A DNA stretch of 64,000 bases from Bacteroides caecigallinarum (GTDB lineage: Bacteria; Bacteroidota; Bacteroidia; Bacteroidales; Bacteroidaceae), in contig NZ_JACJLE010000016.1 of NCBI RefSeq assembly GCF_016901995.1, positions 1 through 64,000 of the forward strand, written 5' to 3'. The position numbers and the translations under genes were made by a program. The notes under the pieces were generated by a model. It made no database searches. It had not been told where the DNA came from and saw only the letters and a list, made by a program, of their open reading frames with translations. How positions within the stretch are numbered: position 1 is the first letter of the stretch; every line of letters begins with the position of its first letter. Shown piece after piece: positions 5,321 to 10,737 of the stretch.

Positions 5321-6094
5321 TTATTTTATATTGTTTCGAATCTTGCTAAGATAGGCATGCATGCCGTCGGCATCCTTACGGCTTATTATGTCAAGAAGCT
5401 CGTTCAGTTCGGTACGTATTCCTTCCACCTGTTTCGGAGTACGTGGGTTGAACAGTATTTCCTGAAGCAGATAATCGTCTTCGTTAAGTACTCCCTTTGC
5501 TATTGCCATGTGGCGTTTGAATGTTGTACCGGGCGCGTCCTGATGTTTCATCACTGCGGCAAACACGAATGTAGAAACGAACGGTATTGACAATGAATAT
5601 GCTACAGTATCGTCATGCTCATCGAATGTATATTCGAAAATGTTGAGTCCAAGTCTTTGGTAAAGATCCTTGAAGAACACTTTGCCCAGACAGTCGCCTT
5701 CCTTTATTATTATGGCATTCTCTGTACTCAGCTGGTCAAGGTTGGCAAATGTAGGACCGAACATAGGGTGGGTTGATACATATCTGAAACCGCTGTTGTC
5801 GTAGAATTTCTGAAGACCGGTCTTTACTGATGCAATGTCGCTTATGATACAGTCCTTCGGAATTACCGGCAGTACCTGGCGGAATGCGTCGAGCGTGTAT
5901 TTCACTGTAGCTGCATTTATTACAAGTTCAGGACGGAACTCCTTAATCTCATCCAGTGAAGTAAAACGCAGACAGTTGTACATGAAGCGCAGGTTCTGAG
6001 GTTTTATGTCGTAAACTGCCACTTCGTGGTCGAAACTTAATACATCGGTAAAGAAGGAGCCCATTTTTCCGGCTCCCAATATTAATATACGCAT
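5321..6094 (-). CDS. tyrA: Prephenate dehydrogenase
   Basis: A 257-residue protein with an N-terminal NAD(P)-binding loop (ILGAGKMGSFF) and the conserved THPMFGPTFA segment (about residues 106-115), where His is the expected catalytic residue. The C-terminal all-helical dimerisation domain follows. It converts prephenate to 4-hydroxyphenylpyruvate in tyrosine synthesis. There is no fused chorismate mutase; that activity sits on the adjacent gene instead. It is the last gene of the pheA-aminotransferase-DAHPS/CM-tyrA operon, 25 bases after its neighbour. It therefore falls under the Phe/Tyr attenuator found upstream of pheA. Confidence 0.9.
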   Translation of the reverse strand: MRILILGAGKMGSFFTDVLSFDHEVAVYDIKPQNLRFMYNCLRFTSLDEIKEFRPELVINAATVKYTLDAFRQVLPVIPKDCIISDIASVKTGLQKFYDNSGFRYVSTHPMFGPTFANLDQLSTENAIIIKEGDCLGKVFFKDLYQRLGLNIFEYTFDEHDDTVAYSLSIPFVSTFVFAAVMKHQDAPGTTFKRHMAIAKGVLNEDDYLLQEILFNPRTPKQVEGIRTELNELLDIISRKDADGMHAYLSKIRNNIK

Positions 6095-6119: not shown

Positions 6120-7187
6120 TTACTTGTTTATTATTTCCATCTGCTGACGTACGCTTTCTTCGTGTATGGCTTCGAATACATGTTTCACAAATTCAGAATC
6201 CATACCGCACAGTGTTCCTTGTGCTCCGCGCTTGTCAAGAATTTCATTGTAACGTCCTGTCTGGAGAATAGTCATATTGTGCTCTTTCTTGAATGTTCCG
6301 ATTTCGCGGCACACACGCATACGTTTTGCCATAATCTCCATCAGCTCGTTGTCGCATTCGTCAATCTGACGTCTCAGCTCGCTGAGGCTTTCTGTTGACT
6401 GGTGTTCCTTACGGATAACCAACAGGTTGAGAATATAGTTAAGAATATCCGGTGTCACCTGCTGAGAAGCGTCGCTCCATGCACAGTCAGGGTTACAGTG
6501 TGATTCCACTATCAGTCCGTCGAAACCGAGGTCCATGGCCTGCTGGCAGAGTGATGCGATGAGCTCACGTTTGCCGCCGATATGGCTTGGGTCGCACAGG
6601 ATAGGTAGGTTAGGAATACGTCTTCTCAGTTCGATAGGAATATGCCATTGCGGAAGATTACGGTAGATTTTTTTGTCGTATGATGAGAAACCGCGGTGGA
6701 TTGCTCCAAGGCGTTTAATTCCTGCATTGTTTATTCTTTCCATTGCTCCGATCCATAACTCCAGATCTGGGTTTACAGGGTTCTTTACATATACAGGTAT
6801 GTCAACTCCCTTCAAGGCATCTGCTATTTCCTGCACTGCAAACGGATTGGCTGTAGTGCGTGCACCTATCCACAATATATCTATACCGGCTTTAAGACAT
6901 TCGTAAACGTGTTTTGCTGTTGCAACTTCTGTGGAAACGTACATTCCGGTTTCTTTCTTAACTTCTTTCAGCCATGCCAGACCGTCAACTCCTACACCTT
7001 CGAAGCCTCCCGGTTTTGTACGTGGTTTCCATATACCTGCGCGGAAGATTTTTGTTCCGTTGTCGGCCAACTGTTTTGCTGTTGTCATTACTTGTTCTTC
7101 TGTTTCTGCGCTGCAAGGTCCTGCTATGATCAATGGACGTTCTTCTGATACGCCTTCCAGTCTGATAGGTTCTAATTCGAGTGCCAT
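6120..7187 (-). CDS. DAHP synthase fused to type II chorismate mutase
   Basis: A 355-residue fusion. Residues 1 to about 262 are a 3-deoxy-7-phosphoheptulonate synthase (AGPCSAE, GIWKPRTKPG, GARTTANPF, CDPSHIGGKR, VESHCNPD). Residues about 270-355 are an AroQ-type chorismate mutase (LRRQIDECDNELMEIMAKRM, then IGTFKKEHN). It catalyses the first shikimate-pathway step and conversion of chorismate to prephenate. The mutase domain at the C-terminus is the known arrangement in Bacteroidetes, where it commonly also gives prephenate feedback on DAHPS. It is third in the operon, so one transcript carries the pathway entry and both prephenate branches. Confidence 0.93.
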   Translation of the reverse strand: MALELEPIRLEGVSEERPLIIAGPCSAETEEQVMTTAKQLADNGTKIFRAGIWKPRTKPGGFEGVGVDGLAWLKEVKKETGMYVSTEVATAKHVYECLKAGIDILWIGARTTANPFAVQEIADALKGVDIPVYVKNPVNPDLELWIGAMERINNAGIKRLGAIHRGFSSYDKKIYRNLPQWHIPIELRRRIPNLPILCDPSHIGGKRELIASLCQQAMDLGFDGLIVESHCNPDCAWSDASQQVTPDILNYILNLLVIRKEHQSTESLSELRRQIDECDNELMEIMAKRMRVCREIGTFKKEHNMTILQTGRYNEILDKRGAQGTLCGMDSEFVKHVFEAIHEESVRQQMEIINK

Positions 7188-7223: not shown

Positions 7224-8408
7224 TTATTTCATATTCTTTATTCTCTCAAGTGCTTCTGCCAGTTTTTCTTCTTTGGCACAAAGCGAAATACGTATATATC
7301 TCTTTCCGTTGCTTCCGAAGATAAATCCCGGAGTGATGAAAACTCTTGCCTGGTGTAGGACTTTTTCTGTCAGTTCCTCTACATCATTGTATGATTCAGG
7401 TATCTTGCCCCAGAGGAACATTCCCACCTGATTCTTGTCGAATGTGCATCCCAATACGTTCATTATTTCTTCGGCAAGCTTTCGGCGACGGCTGTAAACA
7501 TTGAAGTTGGCTTCTTCGTGCCATTCTGCGCTGTTGTTGTATGCCTGTGCAGCTGCCAGCTGTAATGGACGGAATGTGCCGGAATCGATGTTACTCTTTA
7601 TTTTCAGTATCCACTGTACGAAAGTGGCGTTTGTTGCCAGCATTCCCACACGCCAGCCCGGCATGTTGTGGCTCTTACTCATGGAGTTGAATTCTATACA
7701 GCATTCTTTTGCTCCGGGAACATTGAGTATGCTTATCGGCTTTTTGTTCAGGATGAAGCTGTATGGATTGTCGTTCACTACTACGATGTTGTGACGGCGT
7801 GCGAAATCAACAATTTTTTCGTACAGTTCCATTGTGGCATTGGCTCCTGTCGGCATATTGGGGTAGTTGGTCCACATGATTTTCACTCCTGTGAGATCCA
7901 TCTTTTCCAATTCGTCGAAATCAGGCTGCCAGTTGTTGTCCTCACGAAGGTTATAGTTGATTATTTCACTTCCAAGAATCTTGTTCAGCGATGTATAGGT
8001 AGGGTAGCCAGGGTTTGGAACAAGAACCTTATCGCCAGGATTTACCAAAGCCAGTGTCACGTGCAGGATACCTTCTTTTGAGCCGATAAGAGGCTGTATC
8101 TCTGTGGCTGGGTCAAGATCTACATTGTACCATCTTTTATACCAGTCGGCCATGGCTTTCCTCAGTTCAGGTATTCCCACTGTAGGCTGGTAGCCGTGAG
8201 CGTCAGGTCTCTTGGCATTTTCGCAAAGAACATTGATTGTTTCTTCTGAAGGTGGCATGTCAGGACTACCTATTCCGAGGCTTATCACGTTTTTACCTTC
8301 GGCATTCATCTTTGCCACTTCCTTCAGCTTTCTGCTGAAATAGTATTCGCTGACATTTGCCAGTCTGTCGGCCGGCTGTATGTTATATTGTTGATTCTCC
8401 TTCTGCAT
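7224..8408 (-). CDS. PLP-dependent aminotransferase, probably aromatic
   Basis: A 394-residue fold-type I aminotransferase (class I/II). The PLP lysine is in NSMSKSHNMPGWRVG (about residue 237); GIGSPDMPP, NYPNMPTGA and the C-terminal RISLC arginine region are also visible. Its place between pheA and DAHPS/chorismate mutase suggests it transaminates phenylpyruvate and 4-hydroxyphenylpyruvate, or the matching 2-oxoglutarate/glutamate step. The start overlaps the end of pheA by 26 bases, which points to translational coupling. Substrate specificity is inferred from context only. Confidence 0.85.
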   Translation of the reverse strand: MQKENQQYNIQPADRLANVSEYYFSRKLKEVAKMNAEGKNVISLGIGSPDMPPSEETINVLCENAKRPDAHGYQPTVGIPELRKAMADWYKRWYNVDLDPATEIQPLIGSKEGILHVTLALVNPGDKVLVPNPGYPTYTSLNKILGSEIINYNLREDNNWQPDFDELEKMDLTGVKIMWTNYPNMPTGANATMELYEKIVDFARRHNIVVVNDNPYSFILNKKPISILNVPGAKECCIEFNSMSKSHNMPGWRVGMLATNATFVQWILKIKSNIDSGTFRPLQLAAAQAYNNSAEWHEEANFNVYSRRRKLAEEIMNVLGCTFDKNQVGMFLWGKIPESYNDVEELTEKVLHQARVFITPGFIFGSNGKRYIRISLCAKEEKLAEALERIKNMK

Positions 8409-9225
8409 ATTCTCCTAAAATTTTAAGTGCTTTTGTAAGCGGTGTAACTGCATCTATAGACTGTTTGTATCTTAAATAATCATTGAACATTACGTCAACG
8501 TAGAACATGTATTCCCATTCGCGTCCGATAATCGGCAGTGACTGTATCTTTGTCAGGTTTATCTTATAGAATGAGAAGATTGACAAAACTTGCGAAAGGC
8601 TTCCTTCGCTGTGAGGAAGAGAGAATACTATGTTTGCCTTGTTTACCTTAGAGCGGTCTTTCAACTCATCTGCCAGCCATGGATTGCTGATGACCAGAAA
8701 TCTGGTGAAGTTATGTTTATTTGTTTCTATTCCTTCTTCCAGGATTTTCATGTCGTAAAGTCCGGCAGCATATTTGGAGCAGATGGCTGCATGTCCTCTC
8801 AGGTTGTTTTTTCTGATATTCTCGGCACTACCTGCTGTATCTTCCGTTTCTACTACCTTCAGTTCCGGATGATTGTGCAGGAAGTCGCGGCACTGTGCCA
8901 GGGCTACAGGGTGGGAGTTTACTTCTGTGAGGTCTTCCCAATTATCTTCCGGCAGACACATGATGCTGTGGCTTATTCTGAGTTTGTGTTCTCCTATGAT
9001 AGTGGCGCCGCTTTCACGAAGTAATTCGTAGTTGTGCAGCAGGCTTCCGGCTATTGTATTCTCTATTGCAATCACACCTATCACGTCGCTGTCCTTTTTC
9101 ATCTGTGCAAAAACTTCTTCGAATGTATTACAACAAATAAGTTCTATCTCTTCATCCTTAAAATATTTATGGGCAGCTATATCGTGATACGAGCCCTTTA
9201 CTCCTTGAATTGCTATCTTTCTCAT
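8383..9225 (-). CDS. pheA: Prephenate dehydratase with ACT domain
   Basis: A 280-residue monofunctional prephenate dehydratase. The N-terminus starts GVKGSYHDIAA, and the catalytic Thr-Arg-Phe lies in NFTRFLVI (about residues 168-175). The ACT regulatory domain covers about residues 195-275. The usual ESRP phenylalanine-binding motif reads QSLPIIGREWEY here, so feedback by Phe may be altered. The reaction makes phenylpyruvate from prephenate. It is the first gene of the aromatic operon and lies just downstream of a leader peptide and attenuator-terminator, so both enzyme activity and transcription are probably amino-acid controlled. Confidence 0.92.
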   Translation of the reverse strand: MRKIAIQGVKGSYHDIAAHKYFKDEEIELICCNTFEEVFAQMKKDSDVIGVIAIENTIAGSLLHNYELLRESGATIIGEHKLRISHSIMCLPEDNWEDLTEVNSHPVALAQCRDFLHNHPELKVVETEDTAGSAENIRKNNLRGHAAICSKYAAGLYDMKILEEGIETNKHNFTRFLVISNPWLADELKDRSKVNKANIVFSLPHSEGSLSQVLSIFSFYKINLTKIQSLPIIGREWEYMFYVDVMFNDYLRYKQSIDAVTPLTKALKILGEYAEGESTI

Positions 9226-9242
9226 TTTCTTATTATACCATT

Positions 9243-9334
9243 AAAAAAAATCCCGCCTCATACAGAAGCGGGATTTCGTTATTTTATTTTGTATTGATTA
9301 TCTTACGTATCTTACACATACGACTTCCCGCTTC
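9243..9334 (-). promoter_or_regulatory. Transcription attenuator of the Phe/Tyr operon
   Basis: On the minus strand, AAATCCCGC (9268-9276) pairs with GCGGGATTT (9248-9256), followed by a T-tract down to 9243. This is a strong terminator 17 bases before pheA. Upstream, inside the leader-peptide gene, GAAGCGGGA (9326-9334) is perfectly complementary to TCCCGCTTC in the 5' arm of that terminator. That creates an alternative antiterminator fold. Ribosome stalling in the Phe/Tyr run (9346-9387) would leave the antiterminator segment free. This is the layout of classical amino-acid attenuation. Confidence 0.88.
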
Positions 9335-9396
9335 ACTTTATTGCTAAAGTAAAAGTAATAAAAGAAAAAGAAGAAGTATGTTGCAAATGTTTTCAT
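9298..9396 (-). CDS. Phe/Tyr leader peptide of the pheA operon
   Basis: A 32-codon reading frame in the pheA leader: ATG at 9394-9396, TAA at 9298-9300. The peptide begins MKTFATYFFFFFYYFYF, so 12 of its first 17 residues are Phe or Tyr, and it ends KREVVCVRYVR. It has no role as a protein; it senses charged tRNA-Phe and tRNA-Tyr through ribosome stalling. It sits between a promoter (9425-9453) and a terminator (9243-9276) and contains the antiterminator strand at codons 21-24. That strand lies inside the frame, 26 bases before the stop codon, rather than at the stop as in enteric leaders. The exact masking mechanism may therefore differ. Confidence 0.9.
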   Translation of the reverse strand: MKTFATYFFFFFYYFYFSNKVKREVVCVRYVR

Positions 9397-9424
9397 ATTA
9401 TACTTTTTGTTATCGTTTCTGATG

Positions 9425-9453
9425 CAAATGTAATACTTTTCTTGAAAAAACAA
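9425..9453 (-). promoter_or_regulatory. Promoter of the Phe/Tyr operon leader
   Basis: Minus-strand TACATTTG (9425-9432) fits TAnnTTTG. A TTG at 9451-9453 lies 18 bases upstream of it, one base short of the usual spacing. Transcription would start near 9418, about 22 bases before the leader peptide ATG. Confidence 0.6.
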
Positions 9454-9552
9454 GAATATGATGAAAATTTTCTTCAAAATTTTTAATTTTCGAGCATTAT
9501 TACCTTATTTTGTAATGCAGGTTTAATATTTATAATACATAGAATAATCATT

Positions 9553-10737
9553 ATGAAGTATAATTTTGATGAATTGATTGACAGAAGAAATACAAATTCT
9601 GTCAAGGTTGACGAAATGAAAGATATATGGGGTAGAGACGATCTTATCCCGATGTGGGTGGCAGATATGGATTTCGCTACACCGGATTTTGTGGTCGATG
9701 CGGTGAAGAAACGTTGTGAACATCCTGTATTCGGATATACGGTAAAACACGATGGCTATTACAATTCAATAATAAACTGGGTTAAGGCCCGTTACGGAAT
9801 GGAGGTAGAGAAAAAACATATCAATTACGTTCCGGGGATAGTTGCCGGTTTGGGAATGGCGTTGAATTGTTTTACCGCTCCGGGCGATAAGGTTGTCATC
9901 ATGCCGCCAGTTTATCATCCATTTGCATGGCTGACAACGAGAAACAACAGACAGTTGGTGGAGTGTCCTATGATATTCGAGAATGGTGAGTACAGAATGA
10001 ATCTTGAACTTCTGAGAAGCATAAAGAAAGGTGTACGCGTGCTTATTCTTTGTAATCCTCATAACCCGGGTGGGGTAGTATGGAAAAGAGAAGAGCTTGA
10101 GGAACTTGCCGAAATATGTGCAGAAGATAACATCTTGGTATTCTCTGACGAGATACATGCCGACTTGACACTTCCTCCTCATAAGCATCTGCCTTTTGCG
10201 ATGGTGTCTGAGAAGGCGAAAAAGAATTCGGTAACCTTTATGGCTCCAAGTAAGACATTCAATATGCCCGGTGTTGCAGCATCGCATACAATAATATATA
10301 ATGATGCCTTGCGTGGAAAATTTGAGACTTATCTTGAAGCCGGTGAGTTGAATGCGGGACATGTGTTTGCCTTTCCGGCTGTTGAGGCTGCCTATTCTAA
10401 TGGAACTGAGTGGCTGGATCAGTGTTTGGATTATATTCAGGGGAATATAGATTATGTCGATTCTTTCCTGAAAGAGAATACTCCGAAAATAAAGGCTATC
10501 CGTCCTATGGCTTCATATCTGATATGGCTTGACTGTCGTGAACTCGGGTTGAACCATGATGAACTTAATTCATTCTTTGCCGACAAAGCCGGTCTTGCAT
10601 TGAATGACGGTGAGATGTTTGGTCGTGAAGGTGCAGGATTTATGAGGATGAATATCGGTACGCAGCGTTCTGTCCTTGAACGTGCCATGAAACAGCTTGC
10701 TGAAGTATATAATACTGTAATCTGTTTTTCAGAGTAA
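9553..10737 (+). CDS. MalY/PatB-family PLP C-S lyase or aminotransferase
   Basis: A 394-residue fold-type I PLP enzyme of the MalY/PatB family. Landmarks are PMWVADMDFATPDFV near residues 34-48, CNPHNPGG, SDEIHADL and the PLP lysine in APSKTFNMPG (about residue 234). Characterised members cleave cystathionine or cysteine to pyruvate, ammonia and a thiol, and some act as aminotransferases. It probably serves methionine/cysteine metabolism, but which reaction dominates cannot be read from the sequence. It is transcribed divergently from the aromatic operon leader and ends at a strong bidirectional terminator. Confidence 0.85.
   Translation: MKYNFDELIDRRNTNSVKVDEMKDIWGRDDLIPMWVADMDFATPDFVVDAVKKRCEHPVFGYTVKHDGYYNSIINWVKARYGMEVEKKHINYVPGIVAGLGMALNCFTAPGDKVVIMPPVYHPFAWLTTRNNRQLVECPMIFENGEYRMNLELLRSIKKGVRVLILCNPHNPGGVVWKREELEELAEICAEDNILVFSDEIHADLTLPPHKHLPFAMVSEKAKKNSVTFMAPSKTFNMPGVAASHTIIYNDALRGKFETYLEAGELNAGHVFAFPAVEAAYSNGTEWLDQCLDYIQGNIDYVDSFLKENTPKIKAIRPMASYLIWLDCRELGLNHDELNSFFADKAGLALNDGEMFGREGAGFMRMNIGTQRSVLERAMKQLAEVYNTVICFSE

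Follow-up and report, generated by a model that had tools for sequence, protein, structure and literature searches.

A very probable ribosome-mediated attenuator with Phe and Tyr control codons ahead of the pheA operon of Bacteroides caecigallinarum and its relatives

Introduction

Leader-peptide attenuation has been worked out in Proteobacteria, and among the closest described systems is the pheA attenuator of Escherichia coli, whose leader pheL reads Phe and controls pheA alone. As at the Bacteroides caecigallinarum locus analysed here, the control codons of pheL specify the operon product, a terminator lies before pheA and the antiterminator strand lies near the stop codon of the leader; the loop between the antiterminator strands is also long in both, 40 nt in E. 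coli pheL (by eye) and 43-65 nt in 75 close relatives of our locus. In contrast to pheL, the locus combines Phe and Tyr codons, precedes a four-gene operon and carries its antiterminator strand inside the leader frame, whereas the stop codon of E. coli phe stands two bases before that strand. With the trp leader of E. coli (trpL) the locus shares the four-strand logic of 1:2, 2:3 and 3:4 pairing, and the pause in the trpL leader described in an excerpt of PMC9291695 has a candidate counterpart here. The principle of attenuation is textbook knowledge, and the layout differs from the E. coli model.

Attenuators were reportedly also predicted in Bacteroidetes/Chlorobi by Vitreschak et al. in 2004. 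The available part of a 2010 survey gives leader-peptide attenuation from Proteobacteria and Actinobacteria alone (PMC2965389), and that of a 2013 survey suggests a gamma-proteobacterial origin of amino acid attenuators (PMC3766115). Excerpts of other papers describe a Phe uORF before aroF in Acholeplasma (PMC8632094, 2021), two candidate uORFs that contain Phe and Tyr and are associated with shikimate, from a five-genome study (PMC6429828, 2019) and, in general terms, leader-like short ORFs in B. thetaiotaomicron (PMC7366714, 2020). For the same phylum, the accessible part of a study of Flavobacteriaceae (PMC9723704, ISME Commun. 2021) reports strong indications of leader-peptide attenuation ahead of amino acid biosynthesis operons, with 5' elements upstream of pheA and hisG, and describes the one at pheA as conserved, structured and without an Rfam hit; that part contains no anatomy of the pheA element, no Phe/Tyr claim and no Bacteroidales data. 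Some of our class-level loci may come from Flavobacteriaceae. Among the titles and abstract openings listed from the open literature, subscription papers and supplements being outside the scope, none describes the Bacteroidales Phe/Tyr element. Here we describe a dual Phe/Tyr version found ahead of almost all pheA genes examined within a single class of Bacteroidota; its 1:2 hairpin, pause-like block and movable stop codons, and the tandem attenuators of some lineages, appear to be new.

Materials and Methods

The window is the whole stretch of 64,000 nt that was analysed (B. caecigallinarum assembly GCF_016901995.1, contig NZ_JACJLE010000016.1, positions 1 to 64,000), and an earlier note made from its letters had proposed a Phe/Tyr attenuator at 9243-9453. 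The close relatives are the best 80 of 245 PheA relatives found, 79 of them with sufficient upstream sequence. The order-level sample comprised 60 of 87 other genomes with a match, best by E-value, with G126 omitted (contig edge) and two genomes from the family of the window included; as L112 was too short, 59 were usable. Twenty of 66 same-class matches were picked for spread, and 20 of 189 matches from the rest of the phylum for spread and a free-standing pheA; in these two samples a leader was called at 6 Phe/Tyr in 12 codons.

The window is counted in for the promoter-box survey, the stem pair counts, the scan of ORFs (10-90 aa, distinct stops, n=1457) and its own folding model. Relatives alone enter the leader codon tables, the terminator and complementarity counts, codon permutation, the position of strand 2 relative to the frame, stop distances, folding across relatives, the frame control, the pause count and run composition. 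The folding model treats the RNA up to strand 3 with the ribosome as an unpaired footprint, at equilibrium, without kinetics or ribosome volume.

Results

The features of the locus are collected in Table 1. Direct reading and a script agreed on a minus-strand leader with its ATG at 9396 and its stop codon at 9300-9298, whose 32-residue product is MKTFATYFFFFFYYFYFSNKVKREVVCVRYVR. The count of 32 codons with 12 Phe/Tyr codons among the first 17 (8 Phe and 4 Tyr), given in the earlier note, was exact, and with 11 Phe/Tyr in 12 codons this leader was the only one of the 1457 window ORFs to reach at least 9. The terminator with T-tract, said to lie 17 bases ahead of pheA, was located at 9276-9243, leaving that gap to the pheA ATG (9225). 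It was the single terminator-like site across 8800-9900, and since shuffles average 1.0, the scan by itself provides no evidence. The claimed match between a 9-base leader segment, GAAGCGGGA (9334-9326), and the 5' arm of the terminator, TCCCGCTTC (9273-9265), was perfect. Scanning for a sigma-70 promoter gave none at the right place ahead of the leader; the promoter that had been claimed was located as a box TACATTTG (9432-9425) together with TTG at 9453-9451. The box follows TAnnTTTG, which we take to be the Bacteroides-type promoter consensus, and a TAnnTTTG box stands ahead of the leader start codon in 79 of 80 close sequences, the window being one of the 80, and in 47 of 56 order-level sequences, against shuffle means of 4.2 and 3.3, respectively, and a maximum of 9 for each. 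TTG stood 16-22 nt further upstream in 74/80 and 38/56 of these sequences. In all details checked, the observation of the earlier note was correct.

By domain content, the operon covers both the Phe and the Tyr branch as well as the entry enzyme. Among the close loci, the 71 that extend 3.6 kb or more past pheA all had the same gene order and strand, and the remaining 9 of 80, with shorter sequence there, showed nothing contrary to this order. The divergent neighbour at 9553-10737 (+) encodes a PatB-family C-S lyase (TIGR04350, over cut-off), and the promoter of the attenuated operon is situated between this gene and the pheA operon.

Table 1. Coordinates of the leader, its candidate signals and the downstream genes in the window
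Feature	Position	Strand	Basis
Upstream promoter element TTG	9451..9453	-	script; spacing kept in relatives
Promoter -7 box TAnnTTTG, Bacteroides type, TACATTTG	9425..9432	-	script; box kept upstream of relatives' leaders
Leader peptide ORF, 32 codons + TAA	9298..9396	-	direct reading, script location, similar leaders in relatives
Phe/Tyr control codons 4-17	9346..9387	-	Phe or Tyr in 12/14 codons
Strand 1, last three control codons, TTTTACTTT	9346..9354	-	can pair with 9339-9331; codons near-fixed in 79 close relatives
3' arm of 1:2 hairpin, AAAGTGAAG	9331..9339	-	91.6% of cells paired
Strand 2, antiterminator 5' strand, GAAGCGGGA	9326..9334	-	counted 2:3 helix
Candidate RNA polymerase pause, G-11 G-10 ... 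T-1 (9318) G+1 (9317)	9317..9328	-	Y-G at offset in relatives
Intrinsic terminator + T-tract	9243..9276	-	terminator scan and script
Strand 3, TCCCGCTTC	9265..9273	-	common to both alternative stems
Strand 4, GAGGCGGGA	9251..9259	-	counted 3:4 helix
pheA, prephenate dehydratase	8383..9225	-	PF00800
Aminotransferase class I/II	7224..8408	-	PF00155
DAHP synthase - chorismate mutase fusion	6120..7187	-	PF00793 + PF01817
tyrA, prephenate dehydrogenase	5321..6094	-	PF02153

A Phe/Tyr leader was present ahead of pheA in 79/79 close relatives with enough upstream sequence, in 56 of the 59 usable order-level regions and in 19 of 20 class-level loci, compared to 3 of 20 elsewhere in the phylum. As far as these samples go, the leader therefore appears to be characteristic of the class as a whole and rare beyond it. 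Order-level L097, L098 and L100 and class-level L166 had no such leader within 400 nt upstream of pheA, and these leader-less regions (3/59 and 1/20) count against the attenuator reading. PheA was 100% identical in, among others, Bacteroides caecigallinarum ET21 and Candidatus Phocaeicola faecipullorum, the latter with the same leader peptide as the window, and Phocaeicola vulgatus ATCC 8482 (L023) was among the leader carriers. According to the earlier note, its reading would fail if relatives kept neither the Phe/Tyr run nor the two alternative stems; when the relatives were searched, both were kept.

All 79 close and all 19 class-level leaders, and 53 of 56 at the order level, combined Phe and Tyr within the run; the order-level runs of L091, L104 and L137 had no Tyr and that of L127 had one. 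Each of the last six run positions was occupied by Phe or Tyr in 76-79 of 79 close and 51-56 of 56 order-level leaders, counts that bear the mark of leaders having been found through their Phe/Tyr content. In close relatives the earlier run codons mixed TTT with TTC and TAT with TAC; the last four control codons were near-fixed, with TTT at the third from the end in 79/79, and TAC and TTT alternated at the last positions. The proposal that one leader senses both Phe and Tyr and controls both branches plus the entry enzyme is supported by the composition of the run and of the operon. Alternatively, one of the two amino acids, Phe or Tyr, could be the main signal for the leader and the codons of the other be tolerated as single-base neighbours; the four order-level runs of 56 with one or no Tyr would fit this. 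We consider it unlikely, since both residues recur in the runs at every level up to the class and the operon serves both branches; the alternation of TAC and TTT also argues against it, though pairing of strand 1 could explain that alternation too. In class-level L152, L153, L154, L155, L158, L159, L163, L164 and L165, a Trp codon stood in or beside the run, as would be expected of a leader reading all three aromatic amino acids.

Of 135 relatives, all but four (L042, L045, L048 and L051) had a terminator that the script could locate. Strand 2 lay a median of 11 nt after the run, and its complementarity to strand 3 exceeded that of mononucleotide shuffles in 122 of the 131 relatives with a located terminator at p<=0.05 and in 101 at p<=0.01. 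Pairs of both stems were counted in 53 aligned sequences, the window plus 52 relatives chosen from a non-redundant set of 92 for their CGGGA-like strands, with more divergent ones falling outside the counts; strands outside the alignment differ more and keep the match (GGCAGGA, GACAGGA, AACGGGA, CCCGGGA, CTCGGGA and others). In the 2:3 helix, 87.8% of cells were paired against 28.9-50.1% when slid, and 36 cells, inherited changes included, had changed on both sides against 13.1 in shuffles, with 0/500 as high. Two-sided change affected 5 of the 2:3 pairs, compared to 4.2 in shuffles (209/500 shuffles reached it), and pair types numbered 9 compared to 10.1 (472/500), so that neither exceeded shuffles; these two of the five measures are the ones rated least prone to false signals, and this counts against the attenuator reading. 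In the 3:4 helix, 99.1% of cells were paired against 36-55% when slid, 27 cells had changed on both sides (again with inherited changes) against 5.4 in shuffles with 0/500 as high, and 5 pairs had changed on both sides, a number matched by 7/500 shuffles (types, 61/500). Covariation in the two stems, which the earlier note had proposed as a check, was therefore borne out in part: both stems are conserved with cell counts beyond all shuffles, but the pair and type counts of 2:3 stayed within them. As read from the sequence, antiterminator 2:3 and terminator 3:4 are mutually exclusive through their common strand 3.

The antiterminator strand had been described as lying inside the leader frame, well before the stop codon. 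This applies to the window and to 57/75 close and 31/52 order-level leaders, in which strand 2 is wholly in frame, but not to the remaining relatives, where strand 2 follows the stop (17 close, 17 order-level) or is cut by it (1 close, 4 order-level); the position of the stop is thus movable among relatives. The loop between strands 2 and 3 measured 16-61 nt in the order-level leaders, beside the range given above for the close ones. Wherever it lay, the stop codon stood 18 nt or more ahead of strand 3 in all of the 127 leaders except L085, and because of this distance a ribosome at the stop would leave the terminator free. Among non-redundant leaders reading through strand 2, L085 left out, none of 61 broke the 18-nt distance in the leader frame, compared to 32/61 and 38/61 in the other frames (Fisher p 2e-12 and 1e-15, on related rows). 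Phe/Tyr codons and stop placement are hence the frame-specific features of the leader.

These results bear on the possibility that the region is an ordinary 5' untranslated region, its F/Y-rich ORF a mere pyrimidine tract (e.g., a protein or ribosome landing site) and its terminator a fixed attenuation. The run is indeed T-rich, and pyrimidine content alone favours pairing with the purine-rich strand 2; however, the last six positions hold Phe and Tyr rather than other T-rich codons, the stop distance is kept in the leader frame alone and strand 2 changes along with strand 3, so we regard this explanation as very unlikely. An Rfam scan of 8900-9700 gave sub-threshold matches alone, among them RF01859 Phe_leader at 30.7 bits (E 0.005, permissive filters), short of the gathering score of 55. 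A T-box or riboswitch that senses tRNA or a metabolite and switches the same terminator without translation would suit an amino acid operon with alternative stems, but is highly improbable given that no Rfam family reached its gathering score in 8900-9700, that no T-box was among the 13 matches listed (E<=5) and that the conserved part upstream of strand 2 is a coding run.

A further hairpin, missed in the earlier note, involves the last control codons: strand 1, TTTTACTTT (9354-9346), has a potential pairing partner in AAAGTGAAG (9339-9331), four bases of which also belong to strand 2. The proportion of paired cells (Table 1) fell to 59-70% when slid. At least 6 pairs of 1:2 were available in 75/75 close and 40/52 order-level leaders; the 12/52 with fewer count against the attenuator reading, and by eye the register was shifted by one base in some short-stop leaders. 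Covariation of 1:2 was not above shuffles in the aligned sequences because strand 1 hardly varies. Summed over 127 leaders, which are related sequences, the energy of 1:2 was -812 kcal/mol, compared to 200 synonymous codon permutations that averaged -738 and reached -782 at best; order-level sequences account for most of the gain, and the energy was no better than the leader's own mean in 27 close and 15 order-level cases. Taken as a sequence-based prediction, the 1:2 helix likely exists. The idea that distant-stop leaders need 1:2 and near-stop leaders do not was unsupported, at least 6 pairs being found in 27/37 near-stop and 13/15 distant-stop order-level leaders (Fisher p 0.47).

Just 3' of strand 2 lies a conserved block, likewise missed before, which is kept also in 23 leaders that leave it untranslated. 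The GG of strand 2 and this block jointly match the consensus of RNA polymerase pauses, G-10 Y-1 G+1 (PMC9291695, in excerpt). Y-G at a fixed offset occurred in 53 of 80 anchored relatives (80 of 91 sequences having the anchor; L085 left out), against a shuffle mean of 6.5 and a maximum of 16, and its spacing to the last control codon ranged over 22-31 nt with a mode of 28. Since Y-G is frequent also at -4, -2 and +2 bases from this place (47, 26 and 35 of 80), the exact pause base is uncertain, and we propose the block as a candidate for a polymerase pause near 9318.

In the folding model of the window, 7.7-8.9 of the 9 pairs of 2:3 formed when the ribosome was stalled, and 2:3 did not form when the ribosome sat on strand 2. 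The same held across relatives: at least half of 2:3 was kept in 74/75 close and 48/52 order-level leaders with the ribosome stalled one codon before the run end, and in 0/75 and 0/52 with the ribosome over strand 2. The model reproduces the known states of E. coli trp and phe, and the ON state with a stalled ribosome is alike in E. coli phe, though a stall at codon 14 of pheL gave only 2.9 of 7 pairs. Against the attenuator reading, 2:3 reached 8.8 of 9 pairs in the window both without a ribosome and with one at the stop, and 64/75 close and 28/52 order-level leaders kept at least half of 2:3 without a ribosome. The E. coli systems behave differently in this model. Without a ribosome, 1:2 of trp fully excludes 2:3 and the phe strand stays off strand 3. 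With a ribosome at the stop, 2:3 of trp is blocked and the phe strand again stays off; no such block is seen here, where 1:2 and 2:3 have only four bases (GAAG) in common and coexist in part. In the window, the model excludes 2:3 neither without a ribosome nor with a ribosome at the stop.

The position of the stop made a difference among relatives. A ribosome at a stop before or within strand 2, or no more than 10 nt past it, blocked 2:3 in 55/55 leaders (18/18 close, 37/37 order-level), and in the model such near-stop leaders would therefore act like E. coli phe. At a distant stop it failed to block 2:3 in 56/57 close and 7/15 order-level leaders; distant-stop leaders, that of the window included, would therefore need tight timing or a ribosome wedged inside the 2:3 loop. 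Since the model forms 2:3 both untranslated and at the stop of the window, the OFF state should depend on timing or steric effects. With full-length RNA, the terminator formed in all modelled states of the window and of E. coli trp, and the ON state would hence rest on co-transcriptional order.

Discussion

We consider it very probable that the pheA-aminotransferase-DAHPS/CM-tyrA operon is controlled by a translated, ribosome-mediated transcription attenuator reading Phe-tRNA and Tyr-tRNA, because the leader, the stems and the frame-specific stop are conserved. An ORF rich in codons for the product, an intrinsic terminator before the first gene and an exclusive antiterminator are all present. 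We infer that ribosome stalling, polymerase pausing and termination regulate the operon in the cell as follows. A ribosome would begin the leader while RNA polymerase transcribes a short way downstream, where it probably pauses near 9318. Under a shortage of charged Phe- or Tyr-tRNA, the ribosome would stall in codons 4-17, leaving strand 2 (9334-9326) free to pair with strand 3 (9273-9265) before strand 4 exists; with 2:3 paired first, the terminator could not form and the operon would be transcribed. When both tRNAs are plentiful, the ribosome would keep pace, cross strand 2 and halt at 9300, so that strand 3 pairs with strand 4 and transcription stops at 9243.

How a ribosome halted at 9300 keeps strands 2 and 3 apart may be answered by a form of this attenuator that is ON by default, which we put forward as a tentative and rather unlikely option. 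Strand 2 would be translated with the stop lying inside the 2:3 loop of about 50 nt, and the terminating ribosome would act as a wedge that separates the strands without covering strand 2. The operon would then be read through without translation, as nothing blocks 2:3 in that case. If this is true, the operon can be shut off only under active translation, in contrast to E. coli trp and phe, where the reverse applies, and a shift of one stop codon takes relatives from masking to wedging or back. Natural variants in stop position and tandem copy number make the role of the ribosome release site in attenuation testable.

Tandem forms, which the earlier note missed, were found in order-level L085, L089, L092, L095, L109, L111 and L135 (7/59) and class-level L150 and L161 (2/20), each with two Phe/Tyr leaders in series; a script had flagged 11/59 order-level, 2/40 class- and phylum-level and 2/79 close loci, of which 7, 2 and 0 were accepted by eye. 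Each unit has its own terminator and complementary segment, the segments being long in L085, L089, L092, L095, L109 and L111 and short or doubtful in L135, L150 and L161. In L085, L089, L092, L095 and L109, the first unit carries CGGGA-type stems and the second GGTGG-type stems. According to an excerpt of PMC3641672, Salmonella mgtCBR has two leader-ORF attenuators in series, which sense ATP and proline; while those units sense different signals, both units of the tandem relatives carry Phe/Tyr runs.

Further copies of the leader in the genome of the window were sought by script and by eye, and the seven model matches (E 0.016-4) came without the leader-terminator-gene arrangement. A weak match to the leader model, L149 (G000:C179), has an F/Y-rich short ORF, MDCNYQVFLYSFYYFYLLIK, with no terminator seen. 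Short ORFs of other composition were observed in the same genome. Upstream of hisG (L190, G000:C193), a short ORF MIFTTALHHHHHFLTK is followed by a terminator (by eye) and represents a histidine leader. L199 (G000:C79) holds a short ORF MTNSMVNTFFWWRHLQLQKS (translated by eye) and then a terminator, a candidate tryptophan leader upstream of a gene starting at 827 that we take to be trpB-like. On the reverse strand of L200 (G000:C187), the short ORF MTINRIDIIIVII is an Ile/Val-rich candidate leader upstream of a leuA-like HMGL gene. Since His-, Trp- and Ile/Val-rich short ORFs precede hisG, trpB-like and leuA-like genes, attenuation may be a common control of amino acid synthesis in this genome.
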